64,000 nucleotides of DNA from NCBI RefSeq assembly GCF_000238775.2, contig NZ_AFEJ02000001.1, positions 2,232,001-2,296,000 of the forward strand, in the 5' to 3' direction. Source of the stretch: Acaryochloris sp. CCMEE 5410 (GTDB lineage Bacteria; Cyanobacteriota; Cyanobacteriia; Thermosynechococcales; Thermosynechococcaceae). Below the pieces are notes generated by a model. The model made no database searches. It saw nothing but the letters and a program-made list of their open reading frames with translations, and had not been told where the DNA came from. Shown piece by piece: positions 12,767 through 57,273 of the stretch. A program made the translations under genes and the position numbers. Position 1 is the stretch's first letter. The number at the start of each line of letters is the position of its first letter.

Positions 12767-13681
12767 TTACCAGTGAATGCCTGTTAATCTGTCTAGGCAG
12801 ATGAGAAAGAGCCTGGCATTGGGAATCGCAGCATAGCCGAAGGAGTACTTCCCTTTCCCAGACCACCAACTGGCATCTTTATGCTTGAACTGGAAGATGC
12901 CACCTCCAAGGCGAATATCTTTCATATCAGCCACTTCGACTCTATGGGGACCGTCTTTTTCGACAAACTCCATAAAGCCAGGTCCAATTCGAACCATGCG
13001 TAAGGTCTTGCCGATGGGAAACTCGATATACCCTAGTTGGTTGAGCTGTTCATTGATGACAGGCAAAAGATAGGTGCTCCATCGCCCTTCTGCCGCCTGG
13101 GCAAAGTGGTACAAATTATCTGCGGGTGGGGTTCCCTTTTGACTCCGGTAAGCGCCTTTGATCCTAAACTCTGGGCCTGAAAGCCGGGACCACCAATAGT
13201 TGAAGGTTGTGCCGGTATAGACGCCGTTGTAGTAATTCCGGGTTTGTTGAGTAAAGAGATTCTGACCCTCCTTAAACAGAAAAATTTGGGTTTTGGGTGG
13301 GGCAGAACGATTCCCTTTGAGACTGTAAAGGGCAATCCCATGCTCGCCCACATAAGAGCATTGGTAGAAATATTGGGTGACTAAGAAACCCGTGATAGCG
13401 GCGATGACTGTACAGATCAGCGCACAAATCAGGACAGGAATTTCTGCCAAAAATGCAATAACGCAGCCCCCCACCGCTCCTCCAGCAGCCCAAAACATAC
13501 AGTTTTTGATTCGCTCTTGCGCTTGGGTAGCCTGTTTCGAACGAGATAAGGAGCTATCTGCAGAAAGAATCTCACCTATTTCGGGTGGAGGTGGCGCGAA
13601 AAACTCCATATCTGGAATAATTGGACTCCCCACATGGCGAACGACGTTTTCAGATGGCGTCCAGTTCGCTTCACCATTCAT
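12767..13681 (-). CDS. membrane protein of unknown function with two central helices
   Basis: The 304-residue protein has a polar N-terminus of about 60 residues with a short run of prolines (FAPPPPE). Two adjacent transmembrane helices follow (about residues 62-82 and 86-108, rich in Ala, Gly, Ile and Cys). A C-terminal cytoplasmic domain of about 190 residues looks like a membrane-proximal beta-sandwich (YVGEHGIALYSLKGN, LRMVRIGPGFMEF, ARLFLICLDRLTG). The pattern of repeated short strands ending in a hydrophobic RLFL segment resembles DUF6585-type proteins, but I hold that lightly. The gene stands alone on its strand. Confidence 0.65.
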   Translation of the reverse strand: MNGEANWTPSENVVRHVGSPIIPDMEFFAPPPPEIGEILSADSSLSRSKQATQAQERIKNCMFWAAGGAVGGCVIAFLAEIPVLICALICTVIAAITGFLVTQYFYQCSYVGEHGIALYSLKGNRSAPPKTQIFLFKEGQNLFTQQTRNYYNGVYTGTTFNYWWSRLSGPEFRIKGAYRSQKGTPPADNLYHFAQAAEGRWSTYLLPVINEQLNQLGYIEFPIGKTLRMVRIGPGFMEFVEKDGPHRVEVADMKDIRLGGGIFQFKHKDASWWSGKGKYSFGYAAIPNARLFLICLDRLTGIHW

Positions 13682-47290: not shown

Positions 47291-47668
<378 letters not shown>

Positions 47669-47731
47669 TTAGAGAGACGGTAGTATCCTATTCACCGAGA
47701 CGCCCCATTGAGCCCTCGGTCCTGTCTGAAA

Positions 47732-48826
47732 TCAGCTACCCCCCATCAACGCTTGGGCAAGTCCGATGTAGAGGGGGATTCCTAAAGCCAGTGCCACCGG
47801 TGTGCCGACGGCAGTGGACGAACCGATATAAGCGGAAGGATTCGCTGACGGGATACCCGCTCGTAACGTGGGCGGCCCTGAGATATCTGAACTGGAAGAC
47901 GCGATAACGGCTAGAATCACGCAGCCACCGGGGCTAAATCCTGTGATGATATGGGCAATCCAGCCGAGTCCAAAAGCAATCAACCCATGGACAAGCGGCC
48001 CCACAAAGGCATATAGGGCATACCACTGGCCTACCTTACGCAGCTCGCTAATTCTGGCCGTTGCCTCCATCCCCATAACCAACATTAGGATCGAAAGTAG
48101 GCCGCGAAAGAGGGGGTTAAAGAAACTCTCATACACACTTTCTGGCCGTGTGAGTATACCCAGAACAAGACCGAGCAGAAGGGCTGATAGGGCAGAGCCT
48201 TGAAGGCTATCCTTAATGATGGGCCATATCTTAACCCGCTTGCGGGCGGTGCTGCGTTGCTTACGACGATACTCGACAGCGGTACCGCCCTGGCTACCGA
48301 GATACTCCTGCTTGCTGAGGGGCTCATCTGCGAAATCACGCTGCTTGCTGAGATAAACACTCGCCAAGACGATCGCCGTCACTAAAGCTGGGATATCCAT
48401 AAAAGGATAGAGGGCGGCGGCCCAGGGTTCATAGGTGATACCTTCTGTTTCCAGTAACGTCAGGGCGGCGGCGAGGGTAGAGCCACTGACGGCACCGAAC
48501 AAACCTGCGGTGGCAATGGCGTCAACGGTTTTGACGTTTGGCATCTTCGCTAAGGTATAGCGCCCGATAAACACGATCAGGATCCCCACTATCATGGCGA
48601 ACACTGCAGGCAACAGCATTTCCGCTAGATTGGCATTGCGAATGGCAATCCCACCGCTCAGACCGACTTTGATCAGCAGCATAAAGACGATGAACTTGTA
48701 GATCGCGTCGGGAATTTGTAGGCGGCTATGGACAGCGGCAACGACCATACCTCCGATCAGAAAGCCAAGGGTTGGCGACTGCAACTTCGAAAGGAAGAGC
48801 GTCATAAAATTGGTCAAAAATTCCAC
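47732..48826 (-). CDS. sbtA: sodium-dependent bicarbonate transporter
   Basis: The 364-residue plasma-membrane protein imports bicarbonate with sodium as part of the carbon-concentrating mechanism. It has the two-fold repeated helices, with LQSPTLGFLIGGMVVAA at the start, the core LFGAVSGSTLAAALTLLE and the ISGPPTLRAGIPSANPSAYIG region near the end. A cytoplasmic loop of about 50 residues lies between helices (KQEYLGSQGGTAVEYRRKQRS). The GTG at 48824-48826 is chosen because AAGGAGGT lies 8 bases before it. It gives the N-terminus VEFLTNF, like known SbtA proteins. The longer frame upstream lacks a ribosome site. Expression is likely induced by low inorganic carbon. Confidence 0.94.
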   Translation of the reverse strand: MEFLTNFMTLFLSKLQSPTLGFLIGGMVVAAVHSRLQIPDAIYKFIVFMLLIKVGLSGGIAIRNANLAEMLLPAVFAMIVGILIVFIGRYTLAKMPNVKTVDAIATAGLFGAVSGSTLAAALTLLETEGITYEPWAAALYPFMDIPALVTAIVLASVYLSKQRDFADEPLSKQEYLGSQGGTAVEYRRKQRSTARKRVKIWPIIKDSLQGSALSALLLGLVLGILTRPESVYESFFNPLFRGLLSILMLVMGMEATARISELRKVGQWYALYAFVGPLVHGLIAFGLGWIAHIITGFSPGGCVILAVIASSSSDISGPPTLRAGIPSANPSAYIGSSTAVGTPVALALGIPLYIGLAQALMGGS

Positions 48827-48962
48827 TTTAAAATACCTCCTTCTTCCTCCTCTTATGAGGAGTGACAATTGTGATTAGTGAGCTATTAAAGGTTGAAGAA
48901 AGTTGGGATGAAGCGCTTCATCCTCCCTACAGCACAGGTGTTACTCAAAAACCTATCGGCGT

Positions 48963-49628: not shown

Positions 49629-51014
49629 ATGAGTGACGTGTTGGTGCTAGAGACCGAGCAAACTCCCCCAACTGGAACCCAGCTTCCTCCTCGTCAACCG
49701 AAGTGGACGGATACCTTCGCTTACATTGCTAACCCCGATCAGTTTTGCCGCCACAATCTGAAAGAGCACGGTCCTATTTTTAGGACGAGCGTGTTTGGCG
49801 GCACCACTATTTTTGTCGGCTCATCACGGGCAGTACAAATGGCCCTCAATGGTGACCTCCGCTATACCGAAATTGGTCTGCCCCAAACCACCATGACCAT
49901 GTTTGGGGAATATAGTTTGTTTCAGCGCCCCGACCTGCATCGACAACGGAAGAGTGCACTCCGGGCGGGCTTAGCTGGACAAGCGATCCAGGACTATATA
50001 CCCAAAATCAATGACGTGATTATTCAACGCCTTCAAACATGGCCTACCCAAGGTGAAATTGCACTATTCCCAGCCGTAGAGCAGATCTGCTTTGATGTCT
50101 TGGTTCCCCTCTTGCTGGGTGTTGAGTTAGACGATGGGTACTTTCAGGGGCTACCCATTCCATCCAAAGCGGAACTCAAACAAGTCTACAAAACCTTTTT
50201 TGATGGATTTTACGGCCTCTTACCCTGGCGTTCCTCCTTTACGGCCTTTGGCCGAGGTCTACAAGCCCGTACCCGCCTGATCAAATTTATGCAGGCCGTT
50301 ATCCATCGACGCCAATCGGAGGCCAATCTAGATCCCACTGCCGACTTCTTGTCCATGATGTTGGTGAGTCAGCAAACGGATCCAGAGAGCGTCTTTAGCA
50401 GCACCTTGATCGAAAATCAATGTTTATTACAGTTGTGGGCTTCCCACTATGAAATCAGTGGATTGGTCTCATCCTGGATATACCAACTAGGTCGTCATCC
50501 TGAGCATTTTGCCCACCTCCGTAGGGAACAGGCCACGATACAAGCGCAATCAGCACAACCCCTTACAAGCGAGCAACTTAAAACGGCCTCTTTTCTAGAC
50601 GCCACCCTTCAAGAAACCCTCCGCACCCTTCCTCCCTCTTCCACCGCAAACCGCCGCCTGACTGAATCTGTGGTGTTAGACGGTGTGCTCTATAAAAAAG
50701 GATGGACGTTAATTGCAGAGCCACGCATTGCCCATATCCTGCCCGAGCATTTTCCTCAACCAGATGCCTTCCAGCCCAGCCGATTTCTGGAGAATGCCAA
50801 CGCCCGAGACAAATATGCTTACATTCCCTTTGGCGGCGGGGTTCATGCTTGTTTAGGTGCGCAGTTAGCCATGACCATCGCCAAGATTTTCGGCAGCCAT
50901 CTGCTTCGCCAGTTTGAATGGCAGGTGCAGGGTACAGCTCCCTTTGTGCAATTTCCGTTGAAGAAGATCAAAGATAGCTATCCTATGCAGATCGCTCGAC
51001 TGCAGCAGCCCTAA
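49629..51014 (+). CDS. cytochrome P450
   Basis: The 461-residue protein has the P450 heme-thiolate segment FGGGVHACLGAQLA, with Cys408 as the axial ligand. The ExxR helix is LQETLRTLPP, and FxPSRFLEN follows. The general pattern resembles the cyanobacterial CYP120-like and plant-like class. The I-helix, LLQLWASHYEISGLVSS, does not carry the usual (A/G)Gx(D/E)T/S residues for oxygen activation. It is not clear whether it works as a normal monooxygenase or as an isomerase or dehydratase. A ribosome site GAGGATG lies 11 bases before the ATG. It stands alone; no redox partner is adjacent. The gene to its right is convergent. Confidence 0.9.
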   Translation: MSDVLVLETEQTPPTGTQLPPRQPKWTDTFAYIANPDQFCRHNLKEHGPIFRTSVFGGTTIFVGSSRAVQMALNGDLRYTEIGLPQTTMTMFGEYSLFQRPDLHRQRKSALRAGLAGQAIQDYIPKINDVIIQRLQTWPTQGEIALFPAVEQICFDVLVPLLLGVELDDGYFQGLPIPSKAELKQVYKTFFDGFYGLLPWRSSFTAFGRGLQARTRLIKFMQAVIHRRQSEANLDPTADFLSMMLVSQQTDPESVFSSTLIENQCLLQLWASHYEISGLVSSWIYQLGRHPEHFAHLRREQATIQAQSAQPLTSEQLKTASFLDATLQETLRTLPPSSTANRRLTESVVLDGVLYKKGWTLIAEPRIAHILPEHFPQPDAFQPSRFLENANARDKYAYIPFGGGVHACLGAQLAMTIAKIFGSHLLRQFEWQVQGTAPFVQFPLKKIKDSYPMQIARLQQP

Positions 51015-51050: not shown

Positions 51051-52040
51051 CTAAGACGTAGACATACAGCTTTCAGCCCCATCGGCCATCTCATTGGTTT
51101 CCATTGGTCGAGAAGACTGCCGATTAAAGCTCGTTATACAAATCCCCGCCATAATCACCAGAAACGCTAAAACTTGAGCCAGGGAAGGCCGCTCACCATT
51201 CAGCACAAAGGCATAGGTCACCCCAAATACTGGAGACAACGCCGTCCATTTCCCTACCGTTTGCGCATTCAACTGCTCTAGGGCTGAATACCAAAGAAAT
51301 TGGGCCAAGACAATAATGATCAGGGCATAGACCACCATCACTATCCACAGTTGCCCTGCCAGCACATCCATAAAATGCCCTGGGCCAAACACCAAATTAG
51401 CAATAACAAAGAAGATAATGGCCGAAATAAGATTACGGCTAAACACCACAATGCGCAGATTCGTCTGCTGAGACAGCATCAGCTTCCCCAAGGTGGAGCT
51501 GGCCGCATAGACCAAAGCCGAGAGCAGAATCAATAGATCGCCCTGATTAATCTCAAAATTGCTGGTCTTGAGCACAATCGCCAATACCCCCGCAATAATC
51601 AAGGAAAACCCAATCCATTCAAATCGCTTGATTTTACGGCCTAAAATCAGGGTGCCCACCAAGGCATAGATGACAGGGCCAAGACGTCCCAACAACACCG
51701 CATTCGTCACGGACGTATCGGCCAATCCCACAAAAATCAAAGAAGAAAGGAGGGCAGCTAAACCACCGTTCAAAAACAGTCCCACCTGAATGCGTCGATC
51801 CAGGCTCCGCCAATCTTGGATCAAAGAGCGCCAGCCAAACCAGGTCCCTACGGCTAGGGCTGCGCATAAATTGCCCACAAATAAGACATTACAAAAAGAG
51901 ATGGGCGTTTGGGTGCCGCCACTCAGCAACATGGCATTGGCAACCAAAAAAGCAATCAGAGAAGGCCGCAACGCCGCCAAGGCTCTGGAGATCACTAACG
52001 CAAGTTTGGGATTAATCGCCGAGAAGGACAGTGGGGGCAT
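51051..52040 (-). CDS. EamA/DMT family transporter, last gene of the Rieske operon
   Basis: The 329-residue membrane protein has ten helices in two EamA repeats. The first is at residues about 20-150 (FLVANAMLLSGGTQTP, then LLSSLIFVGLADTSVTNAVLLGRLGPVIYALVGTLILGRKIKRFEWIGFSLIIAGVLAIV, described over several helices). The second has TLGKLMLSQQTNLRIVV and a later LEQLNAQTVGKWTALSPVFGVTYAFVLNGERPS. The substrate is unknown. Its ATG directly abuts the TAG of the upstream gene, so it is probably translated in the same operon as the Rieske genes. Confidence 0.85.
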   Translation of the reverse strand: MPPLSFSAINPKLALVISRALAALRPSLIAFLVANAMLLSGGTQTPISFCNVLFVGNLCAALAVGTWFGWRSLIQDWRSLDRRIQVGLFLNGGLAALLSSLIFVGLADTSVTNAVLLGRLGPVIYALVGTLILGRKIKRFEWIGFSLIIAGVLAIVLKTSNFEINQGDLLILLSALVYAASSTLGKLMLSQQTNLRIVVFSRNLISAIIFFVIANLVFGPGHFMDVLAGQLWIVMVVYALIIIVLAQFLWYSALEQLNAQTVGKWTALSPVFGVTYAFVLNGERPSLAQVLAFLVIMAGICITSFNRQSSRPMETNEMADGAESCMSTS

Positions 52041-52805
52041 CTACAACAGTTGATAGGTGGCTGGATCCGCTTTCAGAACAAAAGCATCCGCATATTGAAC
52101 CACTTCTCCCGTAATTTGTACAGGATCGGCCACCCTGTCTAAAACCTTGTCATTAACTGCTTTTCCATCCAGATCCGACAGCAGAAAATAGAGCTTATCC
52201 CCCACCGAATTATGGACCACAAACACGGGAGGTACTCCCCCGGCGATGCAGCGGATAGCACAAGAGCGATGAGTTTTCGTCCGTCCAGGTTTCATCACGC
52301 CGGGATAGCATTTACCATCTACGATTTCTCCTTTTAGGGAAAACTCACCAAGAGAACTCCCTTCCGCAGGTTGGGTCGGTCCCGAGGTCGGACGGTCGAT
52401 CGGTTCCGCTGATTTGGTGGCAATCACCGTTAAGTGGTTGCGGTGGAAGGGGGTGCCTTTCAGTTTCACCCATTTATCCACATGCTCCAACACCTTGGGT
52501 TTAGGGGAGGTTTTGCCTGTTCCTGATAAGAGATAGAGGGAAAAATCACTCACAGTACCCACGTCTCCCGTTCTAGGCACCAAGAGGTGGGGAGAGGGTT
52601 CCCCCACCAGCAGTCCTTCAAATTCAGGGACTTTGGTCCGTTTACCCAAATTGAAGTGATCGAAATGTAAGGGGGGCAGAATAAAGGCAAAGGCTAATGC
52701 ACCTAACACTAGGACGGGAATCAACCCCAACAAAAATCGTTTTAATTGGGGCGGCACCCCTAGATAGCCAATAAAAAATTCATCGTGGGAATCGAGGCGA
52801 CTCAT
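52041..52805 (-). CDS. membrane-anchored extracytoplasmic protein with a Cys/His motif, Rieske operon
   Basis: The 254-residue protein has a short cytoplasmic N-terminus, one transmembrane helix at about 23-45 and an extracytoplasmic part. Its most striking segment runs from residue 160 to 192: KCYPGVMKPG, then HRSCAIRCIAGGVPPVF, with C166, H179, C182 and C186. The same type of motif (KCYLGVMxPG...HRxCAxxCIxGGIPP) I recall in uncharacterised proteins next to Rieske and ferric-reductase-like genes in other bacteria. These four ligands could bind a metal or cofactor. It is 2 bp downstream of the Rieske gene and abuts the EamA gene. Confidence 0.75.
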   Translation of the reverse strand: MSRLDSHDEFFIGYLGVPPQLKRFLLGLIPVLVLGALAFAFILPPLHFDHFNLGKRTKVPEFEGLLVGEPSPHLLVPRTGDVGTVSDFSLYLLSGTGKTSPKPKVLEHVDKWVKLKGTPFHRNHLTVIATKSAEPIDRPTSGPTQPAEGSSLGEFSLKGEIVDGKCYPGVMKPGRTKTHRSCAIRCIAGGVPPVFVVHNSVGDKLYFLLSDLDGKAVNDKVLDRVADPVQITGEVVQYADAFVLKADPATYQLL

Positions 52806-52807
52806 CG

Positions 52808-53869
52808 CTACACTTGGCCAATAACAGCAGGGACAACAGGGGTTCCAGGAAGATTAGGTTTGGCGCTGACTAGAATCTGATCGCCCTGGAGTTTGACATT
52901 AAACGTAGGGATTTTTTCCGTAAAGGGTGGTGGAGAAATTCCGCTCTCTGGCAAATATTGATAGCCGTGCCAAGGACATGTGATACAGCCATCGACAATC
53001 TTACCTTCTCCTAACGGGCCATTTTGATGCTGGCACACATTGGAAATAGCCGAGATTTTGCCTTCATATTTAAAGATGGCCACCCGCTCCCCAGCAACGA
53101 CCGCAATTTTGGCGCGATTCTCAGGAATGTCTTGCACACTGCCAACATGGACAAAGCCATCCGCATCCACTTTGGGCTGGGCCGGGGGTCCAAACAGCGG
53201 TGCGCCATCTTTTTGCGCTTCTCGCAGGGCAGTGATCAGGTGAATCCCCACAATCCACACAAAGCCAACGCCAACAGCCAGGGTGAGTAAGGGATGAGTA
53301 TTGGTTTCTAAGGCCCCTAACACCACATGCCCCACTAATAAGCCATAGGCTAAGTAGACTCCCATATGTAGGGCTTTCCATACGGGCGCGGTTAGGTTAG
53401 TGAGCCAAAAATCATGACTGGTCGCCGCCATCAAGAACAAGATAACCAGGGCCACACCCCCCAGGGCTTCAAAGGGAAAACGGATAAAATCAGCATAGTG
53501 AGTATTGCTGACAAACAAGCTAACAATAGGTTCTAGGTTGCCAAAGTCGTGATACCAGGCCAAAGCATCCCGAGCATGGAGTAGAGCCAGAATAAACATG
53601 GTGACGCCCATATGCCGCCGATTGTAGAGGAGGGGCAAAAACTTGGGGCTCAGGCGGCTGAGGGGGCCAATAGACAGAATGACATGAAGGAGGATAAAGG
53701 CGGCAGAGCCAAAGGCCCTAATCCAAATCCCTTTAATATCTAGATCACTACTAAAGTGAAGGCTAATACCCTCAAAGAAAAAGAGATAGAAAACGACCGT
53801 GGTCAGCAAAATAATGTCGTAAACAAACTTTTGCCGATTCCACTGAACCGCTTTATATGCAACGCCCAC
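52808..53869 (-). CDS. ferric-reductase-like heme-b membrane protein fused to a Rieske domain
   Basis: The 353-residue protein has about six transmembrane helices. Paired His residues sit in hydrophobic positions (H62, H86, H98, H168, H181), the usual ligands of b-type hemes in FRD-type proteins. A C-terminal soluble Rieske domain starts at about residue 237 and carries C279-Q-H281 and C298-P-W-H301, binding a 2Fe-2S cluster. C295 is an extra Cys near the second pair. The combination would move electrons between a soluble or quinol donor and the membrane. It is the central gene of the operon. The substrate is unknown. Confidence 0.85.
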   Translation of the reverse strand: MGVAYKAVQWNRQKFVYDIILLTTVVFYLFFFEGISLHFSSDLDIKGIWIRAFGSAAFILLHVILSIGPLSRLSPKFLPLLYNRRHMGVTMFILALLHARDALAWYHDFGNLEPIVSLFVSNTHYADFIRFPFEALGGVALVILFLMAATSHDFWLTNLTAPVWKALHMGVYLAYGLLVGHVVLGALETNTHPLLTLAVGVGFVWIVGIHLITALREAQKDGAPLFGPPAQPKVDADGFVHVGSVQDIPENRAKIAVVAGERVAIFKYEGKISAISNVCQHQNGPLGEGKIVDGCITCPWHGYQYLPESGISPPPFTEKIPTFNVKLQGDQILVSAKPNLPGTPVVPAVIGQV

Positions 53870-53892
53870 AGATAACTTCCTCTCAGAATGGA

Positions 53893-54414
53893 TTAGCGTT
53901 CAGATTGGGTCAAATCAGGATCTAGGGGAAACGCAGAGATGATTTCTTTAGTGGCCTGACTAAATAGAAGCAGATGCCCTGGTTGCCCCTGCATAGCTGC
54001 TGGAATCAAAAATTGACGATTCGATGCACCAGACAATGCCCCTAATAAAATCGATGTCTCGCTGAGGGCTTCGGGTGGAGTGTCCCCCTGCTGCCAGTAA
54101 ACTAGTACATCTGGTAGTTGGAGATCAGACTGGGGCTGAAGATTGAGAAAGGGATCGCCTCCTGCTTTGGCAAATACCTTTTCAGCCCGAAGCTGAATTT
54201 GGTCTTGTTTAAGAAGAGTTGGTTTACGCCACACCTCCTGATTCTCCCAGGTGAAGGAGGGTGCAAATCCTGCCTTTTGAAATAAGGCGTCCGCTGAGGC
54301 GTCCACTGGAGCGAAGGTTGGACGCCAGACTAAACCCGCAATAAAACAGAGGGGCAGCACAATCGCCAGAATCACAAAGGAATAGAGGTGAACCTGCCGG
54401 CGAGAAATGACCAT
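53893..54414 (-). CDS. membrane-anchored protein of unknown function, Rieske operon
   Basis: The 173-residue protein has one transmembrane helix near residue 10-30 (VHLYSFVILAIVLPLCFIAGLVW), then an extracytoplasmic part without Cys. It has no recognised family. It starts at the stop of the 92-residue gene (TAATG overlap) and is 23 bp from the Rieske gene, so it is in the same operon. Confidence 0.75.
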   Translation of the reverse strand: MVISRRQVHLYSFVILAIVLPLCFIAGLVWRPTFAPVDASADALFQKAGFAPSFTWENQEVWRKPTLLKQDQIQLRAEKVFAKAGGDPFLNLQPQSDLQLPDVLVYWQQGDTPPEALSETSILLGALSGASNRQFLIPAAMQGQPGHLLLFSQATKEIISAFPLDPDLTQSER

Positions 54415-54692
54415 TATGAGGCTCCTGCACTTTGCTTAGCAGCTAGTCGATGAGCGTTCTTTTCGGTAGGATGGCCTTTGCCGCGCAACAAGCGAACCGC
54501 AAACATCGGCCAAAATGTAACGACTCCCGGAATAATCAGAATTCGGAAACCAATGGCCCAACCTTGAGCACCTGAATCGACCCGCTTGACTAAGAAGGTG
54601 ACGAACAGAAGCGCGAAGATCAAACCTGCGATCGCATATGCTCGCACCAGATTAATCACCCACTCAACCACAGAAATAGCAGTGCTATCCAT
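54414..54692 (-). CDS. small membrane protein, first gene of the Rieske operon
   Basis: The 92-residue protein has two or three hydrophobic helices (VVEWVINLVRAYAIAGLIFALLFVTFLV and GFRILIIPGVVTFWPMFAVRLL) and a basic Ala/Lys-rich C-terminus. No family is recognised. The ATG at 54692 (MDSTAISVV) is preferred over the one nine codons earlier. It overlaps the next gene by 1 bp. Confidence 0.7.
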   Translation of the reverse strand: MDSTAISVVEWVINLVRAYAIAGLIFALLFVTFLVKRVDSGAQGWAIGFRILIIPGVVTFWPMFAVRLLRGKGHPTEKNAHRLAAKQSAGAS

Positions 54693-54840
54693 ACGTTGTC
54701 TACCTTCTAGAATTCGCAAAGGGCAGTCCTATTAGGTATGAGAATACCAGCCTATTTAGCCATCGGTAAACTACTCGTCTTGATTTGGCAAATTGCCTCA
54801 AGATTGCCAGAATTAGAACCGTAGGATTGAACGGTACATC

Positions 54841-55566
54841 ATGCATCGCTTGACTCAGACTCCTAAACGAAAATCGATTGCTTTAGCCTTACTCCCCCTT
54901 AGTCTGGGGTTATTGATGAGCTGCAGCAGTACAGAAGCCCCTTCAGACACGGAGTCACCAGCATCTACCCCTGCTGAATCATCGGCCTCAGACGCGTCCA
55001 CAGACTCCCTAGATCGCTCAGTTGCAGATCCCAGCGCTACGACGGATGAAACGGCCGACAACTCCAATTCTGGTACCGAAACCCTAGCCTCTTCCGCGAG
55101 TTCAGGGAAAGTTGACCTGGCAGCTATTATTGGCACTGAAGATGACGGATGGCTCCCCAAAACCCTCTCGGAATATGATTTCAAGCGAGGGATGAGTCCT
55201 GAAGAAGTGGGCAAGATCTTACCTGGAGCGGAAAAGATTTCTAAGTTTGGGTTTAGCGAAGTCCCAGCCAAGGGTGTTCCAGGTGTTGATAAGTATAAAT
55301 TCAGCTTTCTCAAAGACAAAAAAGATCCTGAAGGAAAGCGTACTTTATACAGTGTTTCACTGCTGTTTGACCCGTCTATCAAAAAAGACCATCCCTATGA
55401 CAAAGTTGCTTTAGCTTTTGCTGAAAAGTATGGCGAGGTCGAGCCCGAGAAAATTGAAAAGAAAATTGTGACTTGGGTAGGCCCTAATTTTGCCACGGCT
55501 CAATTTACTAACAGCATCAATAAATTCGAAGGGTACGAATTTAAGATCGTCGTTCCCAAATCGTAA
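54841..55566 (+). CDS. lipoprotein of unknown function
   Basis: The 241-residue protein has a lipoprotein signal (ALLPLSLGLLMSCSS) with Cys28 as the lipidation site. A linker rich in Ser, Asp, Thr and Ala (about 30-95) leads to a domain of about 145 residues (DGWLPKTLSEYDFKRGMSPEEVGKILPGAEKISKFGFSEVP, described by its motif only). It would be bound to the membrane and face the periplasm. No family is recognised. It is divergent from the Rieske operon, with about 150 bp between them, and alkB follows in the same direction. Confidence 0.75.
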   Translation: MHRLTQTPKRKSIALALLPLSLGLLMSCSSTEAPSDTESPASTPAESSASDASTDSLDRSVADPSATTDETADNSNSGTETLASSASSGKVDLAAIIGTEDDGWLPKTLSEYDFKRGMSPEEVGKILPGAEKISKFGFSEVPAKGVPGVDKYKFSFLKDKKDPEGKRTLYSVSLLFDPSIKKDHPYDKVALAFAEKYGEVEPEKIEKKIVTWVGPNFATAQFTNSINKFEGYEFKIVVPKS

Positions 55567-56260: not shown

Positions 56261-56421
56261 ATGACAAGGTTGGACAAGTGCTTCTTCATCACTGCTGGCT
56301 TCCAGAATTAGCATCTACCGCAGCAGTATCTCAATTCGTTACTCATCAATCTAATGGGGAAGCATCTATAAGATTGTAATGACGTAGTGTTTTCAAAAAT
56401 TGGTTGTTGAGGACTGATAGG

Positions 56422-57273
56422 ATGTTTCATCCACGGGGTTTGACCCTGACGGTATTGGCCATGCTTGCTTTTGCTGGGAATTCTATCCTATGTCGGTTAG
56501 CGCTCAGAGAAACGCCCATTGATGCAGCAACCTTTACATCAATTCGGCTCATCTCCGGTGCGATTATCCTGGGATTGATCACACAAATAAAGGGTAGAAG
56601 CCTTAAAGCAGAAGGCAGTTGGCCCTCTGCTTTAACACTTTTTATCTATGCATCAGGCTTTTCGTTTGCTTATATCCAGCTAGCTGCCGGTACGGGGGCG
56701 TTACTGCTTTTTGGGGCAGTACAGATCACCATGATCGGGTACGGATTTTGGACTGGAGAACGCTTAAGCAAGCAGCAAATTGCTGGTTTTATGATGGCGC
56801 TGGTGGGTCTAGTGGGGTTTCTATTACCGGGTCTCTCGGCTCCCCCGTTCCAAAGTTCTGCCCTGATGATCGCTGCGGGCATTGCCTGGGGGATTTATTC
56901 CTTACGCGGTAAATCAGCTAGCAACCCTATGGGAATGACGGCTGGCAACTTTTTAAGAGCAGTCCCATTTACTGTGGGACTGAGTCTATCGATGATTTCC
57001 GAAACGTCGTTAACCTTGGCAGGCTATCTATACGCAGTCGCTGCGGGTGCCGTCACTTCAGGCCTGGGATATACCATTTGGTACACGGCCTTAAAAGATT
57101 TGACGGCAACGTCTGCAGCAACAGTCCAACTTAGTGTTCCCGTCATTGCCGCTACAGGAGGGATTCTTTTTCTCGGTGAAAATCTAACCCTGCGCCTCAT
57201 GGTCGCTTCCTGTGCCATTCTGGGAGGTATTGCACTGGCCATCTTGGAGAAACCTAAAATCTCAGAAACTTAA
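56422..57273 (+). CDS. EamA/DMT family transporter
   Basis: The 283-residue membrane protein has ten helices in two repeats. They show FAGNSILCRLALRETPIDAATFTSIRLISGAIILG at the start of the first and AGIAWGIYSLRGKSASNPMGMTAGNFLRA at the start of the second, and LTATSAATVQLSVPVIAATGGILFLGENLT at its end. The family exports amino acids, purines and other metabolites. It has no operon partner. The ATG at 56422 is preferred over a TTG six codons earlier. Confidence 0.88.
   Translation: MFHPRGLTLTVLAMLAFAGNSILCRLALRETPIDAATFTSIRLISGAIILGLITQIKGRSLKAEGSWPSALTLFIYASGFSFAYIQLAAGTGALLLFGAVQITMIGYGFWTGERLSKQQIAGFMMALVGLVGFLLPGLSAPPFQSSALMIAAGIAWGIYSLRGKSASNPMGMTAGNFLRAVPFTVGLSLSMISETSLTLAGYLYAVAAGAVTSGLGYTIWYTALKDLTATSAATVQLSVPVIAATGGILFLGENLTLRLMVASCAILGGIALAILEKPKISET

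Follow-up and report, generated by a model that had tools for sequence, protein, structure and literature searches.

A conserved four-gene set from Acaryochloris sp. CCMEE 5410, built around a ferric-reductase-like/Rieske fusion and a Cys3His protein, as a putative transmembrane electron conduit

In this study, we analysed a window of 64,000 nucleotides from Acaryochloris sp. CCMEE 5410 (assembly GCF_000238775.2, contig NZ_AFEJ02000001.1, positions 2,232,001 to 2,296,000; genome of 8.09 Mb), and we describe a run of five minus-strand genes in this whole stretch, to which all unlabelled coordinates refer. Four of these genes, which we call S101, S173, RF and CH (core genes 1 to 4), form a core that is kept in the same order across several phyla, and the fifth encodes an EamA-family transporter. 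The gene set, its order and conservation, its domain make-up and the predicted folds lead us to favour, with some reservation, the view that S101-S173-RF-CH is an MsrQ-like transmembrane conduit, which would take up electrons from donors in the cytosol and hand them on, by way of haem b, to a Cys3His protein in the periplasm. L-numbers denote loci and G-numbers denote genomes.

Results

The five genes run from 54692 (or 54719) down to 51051, and the order, strand and tight spacing given in an earlier note on this DNA were found as described: read 5' to 3', the junctions are -1 bp (S101/S173), 23 bp (S173/RF), 2 bp (RF/CH) and 0 bp (CH/EamA). The set is delimited by plus-strand sequence at either end: an open reading frame (ORF) begins at 54841, and a P450 gene ends at 51014. 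Promoter-like sites were no commoner in the region than in shuffled sequences (5 against 4.0 expected), and the scan for terminator-like sites was uninformative (10 against 5.4 expected, all within genes).

RF (52808..53869, minus strand, GTG start) joins a ferric-reductase-like domain of six transmembrane (TM) helices to a C-terminal Rieske 2Fe-2S domain that is predicted to be cytosolic. The protein scored 43.5 bits against Ferric_reduct (PF01794; cut-off 28), 48 bits in a genome-wide search, and 56.3 bits against Rieske (PF00355; cut-off 20.3). The PF01794 match and the conserved histidines in two TM helices (H86 and H98, H168 and H181) are those expected of the FRD superfamily, and the ligand pairs C279-H281 (C-x-H) and C298-H301 (C-x2-H), which were read directly in the sequence, are those of a Rieske protein, confirming the fusion and the four residues that the earlier note had named. 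H86, H98, H152, H168, H181, C279, H281 and H301 were invariant in all 72 aligned RF proteins, and C298 was kept in 71 of them, being replaced by serine in L104. Hydropathy gave seven cores, of which two adjacent ones were merged by hand to obtain the six helices. The Lys+Arg content per loop was 3.1, 0, 4.2, 0.5, 1.3 and 0.4, while the tail had 3.1 in its first 15 residues, and from this bias RF is predicted to have both termini inside and its Rieske domain in the cytosol. The best sequence matches of the Rieske domain were soluble dioxygenase-type ferredoxins, with the b6f Rieske proteins lower in the list. Three other Ferric_reduct proteins are encoded elsewhere in the genome.

CH (52041..52805, minus strand) is predicted to have one TM helix and, outside, two OB-like barrels, the second of which carries the Cys3His motif. 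The residues C166, H179, C182 and C186, already singled out from the one sequence, were read directly and proved to be invariant in 80 of 80 aligned homologs. In the predicted structure (pLDDT 90.2), both barrels are five-stranded and the motif sits on two helices in the second. A fold search against the PDB returned OB-type matches in the generic range, mostly to the first barrel (best Z 7.5); one match covers the second barrel (Z 7.4). For CH, Pfam, NCBIfam, PADLOC and PHROGs yielded no usable family, the PDB no significant relative by sequence (best E 1) and the viral contigs, searched with CH as the single query protein, no close relative. Assignment to ApyH was rejected, as the only NCBIfam match was weak (E 0.0021; 17.3 bits, with the cut-off at 400). 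A defence or phage origin of the operon was likewise rejected: PADLOC matched none of the five genes, and PHROGs none of the three that were tried. The outer domain of CH also occurs alone: a stand-alone protein of G078 (L030:1955-2452) matches CH profile positions 154-245 (E 1.3e-9), has the same C...H-x2-C-x3-C order and, judged by eye, an apparent signal peptide. It had no Pfam or NCBIfam match and no relative in the plasmid collection, and it possibly points to a wider, undescribed periplasmic family.

The distribution of the set was assessed by scanning one genome per species, in which 244 stretches encode CH relatives. The best-scoring 80 of these, three Rhizobium plasmids, four further genomes and the window made up 88 loci, which were analysed in six frames with profiles; removing L026 as a duplicate of L039 left 87 distinct loci, to which the counts below refer. 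The loci reach about 8-11 kb on each side at most, several are cut by contig ends, and phyla were assigned from the record titles. In 80 of the 87 loci, RF is either fused to CH or stands on the same strand no more than 400 nt upstream of it; S173 was recognised in 72, S101 was found upstream of RF in 73, and all four genes follow in order in 69. Five of the seven loci without such an RF are contig-edge cases: an RF fragment stands at the edge in L055, L072, L074 and L079, and CH begins at contig base 2 in L045, where S101, S173, a full-length RF and the first part of a CH are found together on another contig. In L065, ORFs of 281 and 45 aa separate RF from CH, and in L105, S173 and a full-length RF are present elsewhere in the genome. 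RF and CH form one 583-aa ORF in L106, a metagenome-assembled genome (MAG).

By phylum, the loci comprise Cyanobacteriota (38), Verrucomicrobiota (15, plus 2 Kiritimatiellae and 1 Lentisphaerae), Planctomycetota (8), Acidobacteriota (6), Bacteroidota (5), Alphaproteobacteria (4), Calditrichota (3), KSB1 (1) and Gemmatimonadota (1), with three unlabelled. The strict order of the four core genes was found in eight phyla, or nine when KSB1 is counted with the inserted ORFs of L065; among the five Bacteroidota loci, S173 rose above the profile threshold in one. CH occurs on five plasmid records, all from Rhizobium (30-33% identity), and on the three that were examined RF is directly upstream of CH and is preceded by two small genes. 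Since the CH residues are kept in 80 of 80 homologs, the Rieske ligands and TM histidines of RF in 71-72 of 72, and the order in other phyla, the feature goes beyond chance.

Within the cyanobacteria, the nearest relatives at the locus are Acaryochloris MAGs (84-91% CH identity). The CH query matched in four of the 29 genomes of the order, all within the window's own genus. Four of the seven genomes of this genus carry CH, and its presence is thus patchy; the three negatives are 87-92% complete. Across 386 cyanobacterial genomes, the CH profile matched in six, five of them at full length. A search of the same genomes with the single CH sequence gave eight matches at E<=0.01; the two weakest, in G052 and G141, were not upheld with the profile. 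The earlier note had staked its case on RF and CH being neighbours in other genomes, which the 80 loci bear out; in addition, full-length RF (E 1.2e-140 or less) was found in G000, G207, G215, G247 and G383, which are exactly the five genomes with full-length CH. Five RF candidates were scored per genome and the best E-value was recorded for every matching genome: in the other 178 genomes with a hit, the best was 1.3e-21 or weaker, and among the matches listed, these weaker hits begin at profile position 174 or later, i.e., at the Rieske end. The pairwise distances of RF and CH in 71 shared loci correlated (Spearman 0.73; maximum 0.23 in 999 label shuffles), for which shared phylogeny alone could be sufficient.

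Several Rieske-bearing enzymes near CH are candidate electron donors. An NADPH-dependent flavin mononucleotide (FMN) reductase with a fused Rieske domain lies near CH in L065, L079, L081, L092 and L109, in L109 directly after it, and 6.7 kb away in L106, a Rieske-fused pyruvate-oxidase-like thiamine pyrophosphate (TPP) enzyme occurs in L084, L096 and L107, and a Rieske-fused glutamate-synthase-like (GltS-like) flavoprotein in L095. When homologs with or without a Rieske domain on either strand are included, FMN reductases were found at 12 loci, TPP enzymes at 11 and GltS-like proteins at nine, together covering 26 of the 87 loci by a hand count. The window's genome encodes, away from the operon, a Rieske-TPP enzyme that is 65% identical to that of L107 and has an FMN reductase gene beside it. 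As an obligate partner the Rieske-TPP enzyme was ruled out, as it was found (E<=1e-150) in one of the 386 genomes.

The two small core genes precede RF on the minus strand. S101 (54414..54692) encodes a two-TM hairpin protein according to its ORF, a 27-row alignment with four invariant columns, and hydropathy, in which two of three cores, being adjacent, were merged by hand; both ends are rich in Lys/Arg. Its start may be a TTG at 54719 (101 aa) or an ATG at 54692 (92 aa), the latter, which is also the end given in the earlier note, being favoured because 92 aa is likewise the length of the longest ORFs of its close relatives in L031 and L033. S101 had no Pfam match near the cut-off and no usable NCBIfam match, and S173 (53893..54414) had no usable match in either database. 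From a 44-row alignment and AlphaFold2 (mean pLDDT 85.0), S173 is predicted to have an N-terminal TM helix, N-in by charge, and a beta-sandwich outside, whose fold matches are generic beta-sandwiches (Z at most 7.6), some of the weak ones being copper proteins.

The EamA-family transporter gene (51051..52040, minus strand; PF00892, 89.1 bits) lies directly 3' of CH. The earlier note had counted it as part of the set; it is accessory and was rejected as a core member, as it stands downstream of CH in 19 of the 87 loci, all cyanobacterial, and a 53% identical paralog is found elsewhere in the window's genome, in a separate cluster. There, on contig 1 at about 145.9-148.7 kb (L135 8879-11714), a cupin, the second EamA and an ATP-grasp gene are grouped, homologous to genes downstream of CH in other cyanobacteria, and this cluster is a separable module. 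The cyanobacterial loci add a glutathione-synthetase-like ATP-grasp (17/87) and a cysteine-dioxygenase-like cupin (12/87), accompanied by a GNAT protein that is fused to the ATP-grasp in an L027 protein. Non-cyanobacterial loci add another ATP-grasp-like protein (16/87), a DinB-like protein whose Pfam score is below the cut-off (15/87) and TANGO2 (12/87). By guilt by association only, these genes hint at thiol or peptide chemistry. In the window, a further plus-strand ORF at 56404-57273 resembles an EamA-type transporter; over part of its length, its identity to the EamA of the operon and to one homolog is about 21-24%.

Other neighbourhoods were noted in passing. In Rhizobium leguminosarum WSM1689 (L021 10070-13264), TetR, sigma-70-family, DUF1109, chlorite-dismutase-family and NrsF genes lie directly 3' of the operon and may serve the control of oxidative or chlorine stress. 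Possible links of the operon to a chlorine-stress regulon, to DUF5818 or to ergothioneine enzymes were weighed and set aside. A cyanobacterium (L058 1959-5760) and a planctomycete (L098 1418-5727) both have aquaporin-like (by eye), glyoxalase-family and GMC-oxidoreductase genes before the core, the latter two in a different order. In L040, translations at about 12905-13667 contain the repeated peptide unit FKPIPRKGTET, which suggests a CRISPR-like DNA repeat array. The window also holds an Sbt_1 bicarbonate transporter gene (47732-48868) beside a 110-aa ORF (span 47291-48868), whose product presumably resembles the PII-like regulator SbtB.

Discussion

We propose that electrons enter at the C-terminal Rieske cluster of RF, which soluble cytosolic donors would reduce; these donors would likely be NAD(P)H-FMN reductases and, depending on the genome, TPP-dependent 2-oxoacid oxidases or glutamate-synthase-like flavoproteins, several of which bear a Rieske domain themselves. 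One or two b haems in RF would then carry the electrons across the inner membrane to CH, where the Cys3His site of the outer OB-like domain, which may be a bound metal, a cluster, a haem or redox thiols, would reduce a periplasmic substrate. For S101 and S173, a role as assembly or structural subunits is probable. The topology, which is taken from charge bias, and the cofactors, the direction of the electrons, the complex and the substrate are what we infer. The earlier suggestion of a membrane electron-transfer unit agrees with the predicted topology and the cofactor motifs; its cyanobacterial framing proved too narrow. As a weaker extension, the substrate may be thiol-related, as suggested by the glutathione-synthetase-like ATP-grasp, cysteine-dioxygenase-like cupin and EamA genes and, elsewhere, by the ATP-grasp-like, DinB-like and TANGO2 genes. 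It is conceivable, if doubtful, that the operon represents a new class of transmembrane reductase in about nine phyla, in which a Rieske-tagged cytosolic pool, made up of FMN reductases, TPP oxidases and GltS-like flavoproteins with the same Rieske plug, would feed a common haem conduit. Its outlet would be a new periplasmic family, with tandem OB-like domains and a Cys3His redox centre, that keeps an exported low-molecular-weight thiol or other sulfur substrate reduced.

Several points weigh against the proposed conduit. It is drawn from sequence comparison and structure prediction. The candidate donors are near only 26 loci, some of them on the other strand and 4-7 kb off, with no background rate for comparison, and of the five cyanobacterial genomes with RF and CH, only the window's own has the Rieske-TPP enzyme at the threshold given above. 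The fusion of RF and CH is known from one MAG, and core genes were missing or unrecognised in part of the loci (RF in seven, S173 in 15, S101 in 14), partly because of contig edges. Both CH and S173 have generic fold matches. CH shows a weak charge bias, with 3.7 Lys+Arg to 2.2 Asp+Glu ahead of its TM helix, and its conserved residues could instead be structural, as a zinc site or a disulfide.

Pyruvate-oxidase-like TPP enzymes are usually electron sources, and their presence among the neighbours speaks against a path in the reverse direction, in which CH would oxidise a periplasmic compound and RF would send the electrons inward to the Rieske cluster and on to cytosolic Rieske-fused flavoproteins. 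The MsrQ-like systems treated in PMC8238504 are also modelled there with a cytosolic donor. We regard this reverse path as unlikely, although the direction cannot be read from the sequence, the Rieske-FMN reductase and the Rieske-GltS-like protein could equally be acceptors, and PMC8238504 itself allows, in principle, for either direction in systems of this kind. Metal handling was considered because FRD proteins include metal reductases (PMC3591440): RF would reduce ferric or cupric ions, and CH, together with S173, would bind metal as a periplasmic subunit that serves metal uptake or resistance. The three invariant cysteines and one histidine of CH and the copper proteins among the weak S173 matches would fit such a role. 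These matches are generic, however, and in the neighbour clusters that were scanned, a minority of the neighbours, no metal transporter was recognised, the one exception being a ZIP-like cluster of four loci, from which a single member was scanned and scored under the Pfam cut-off; we think that metal handling is improbable. The least convincing alternative is a quinone-linked branch, in which RF would have a quinol/quinone site that exchanges electrons with the Rieske cluster, in the manner of a reduced bc-type complex. PMC8238504 describes MsrQ as quinone-binding, but the predicted cytosolic position of the Rieske domain and its closer match to dioxygenase-type ferredoxins than to b6f proteins make such a branch very unlikely.

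An outward conduit from the cytosol to the Cys3His protein thus remains our preferred reading. FRD/MsrQ-like proteins are a known route for electrons out of the cytosol, and in this operon such a module is combined with a Rieske input and with three protein families for which the databases have no usable model. The Rieske-fused donor-like enzymes near some loci point to a common plug-in interface that links metabolism in the cytosol with the cell envelope. That cyanobacteria, Planctomycetota, Verrucomicrobiota, Acidobacteriota, Bacteroidota, rhizobial plasmids and others have all kept the set together speaks for selection on a redox function of the periplasm that is as yet unstudied. As the operon carriers include Synechococcus WH7803 (L064) and several rhizobia, knock-outs should be practical.

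Comparison with known systems

Searches of the openly licensed papers of PubMed Central (PMC) returned no description of the gene set. With the bc1 and b6f complexes the operon shares a Rieske cluster and membrane b haems; it differs in that RF is a single fused polypeptide whose membrane part belongs to the Ferric_reduct family, and in that the charge bias places its Rieske domain in the cytosol by prediction and not on the periplasmic (p) side. Another parallel is found in the legend of Figure 3 of PMC3591440, in which Rieske is listed among the domains joined to bacterial FRD proteins (model M4). The legend also names FMN for M4, which may be the same arrangement as RF or a different one.

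The flavinylated MsrQ-like systems of PMC8238504 resemble the proposed conduit in having a cytosolic donor, an MsrQ-like membrane protein and an extracytosolic acceptor, with a direction that is described as reversible in principle. They differ in their FMN-binding acceptor and ApbE, neither of which was found when the five genes and three of their neighbours were scanned with Pfam, and the word Rieske is absent from the main text of that paper. In comparison with MsrPQ (YedYZ), the membrane domain of RF is MsrQ-like, with six TM helices and haem-type histidines, and the adjoining gene encodes a partner with its bulk outside. The flavin reductase Fre is proposed in PMC5676040 as the electron donor of MsrQ, which has its counterpart in the FMN reductases near some RF loci. 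RF was not filed as MsrQ because it scored 34 bits (E 2e-8) against NF003831, far under the equivalog cut-off of 130 bits, and, unlike MsrQ, it has a fused Rieske domain. The molybdoenzyme family PF00174 had no match in the five operon genes and four matches elsewhere in the genome; in place of the molybdoenzyme MsrP, the partner of RF is the OB-like Cys3His protein CH.

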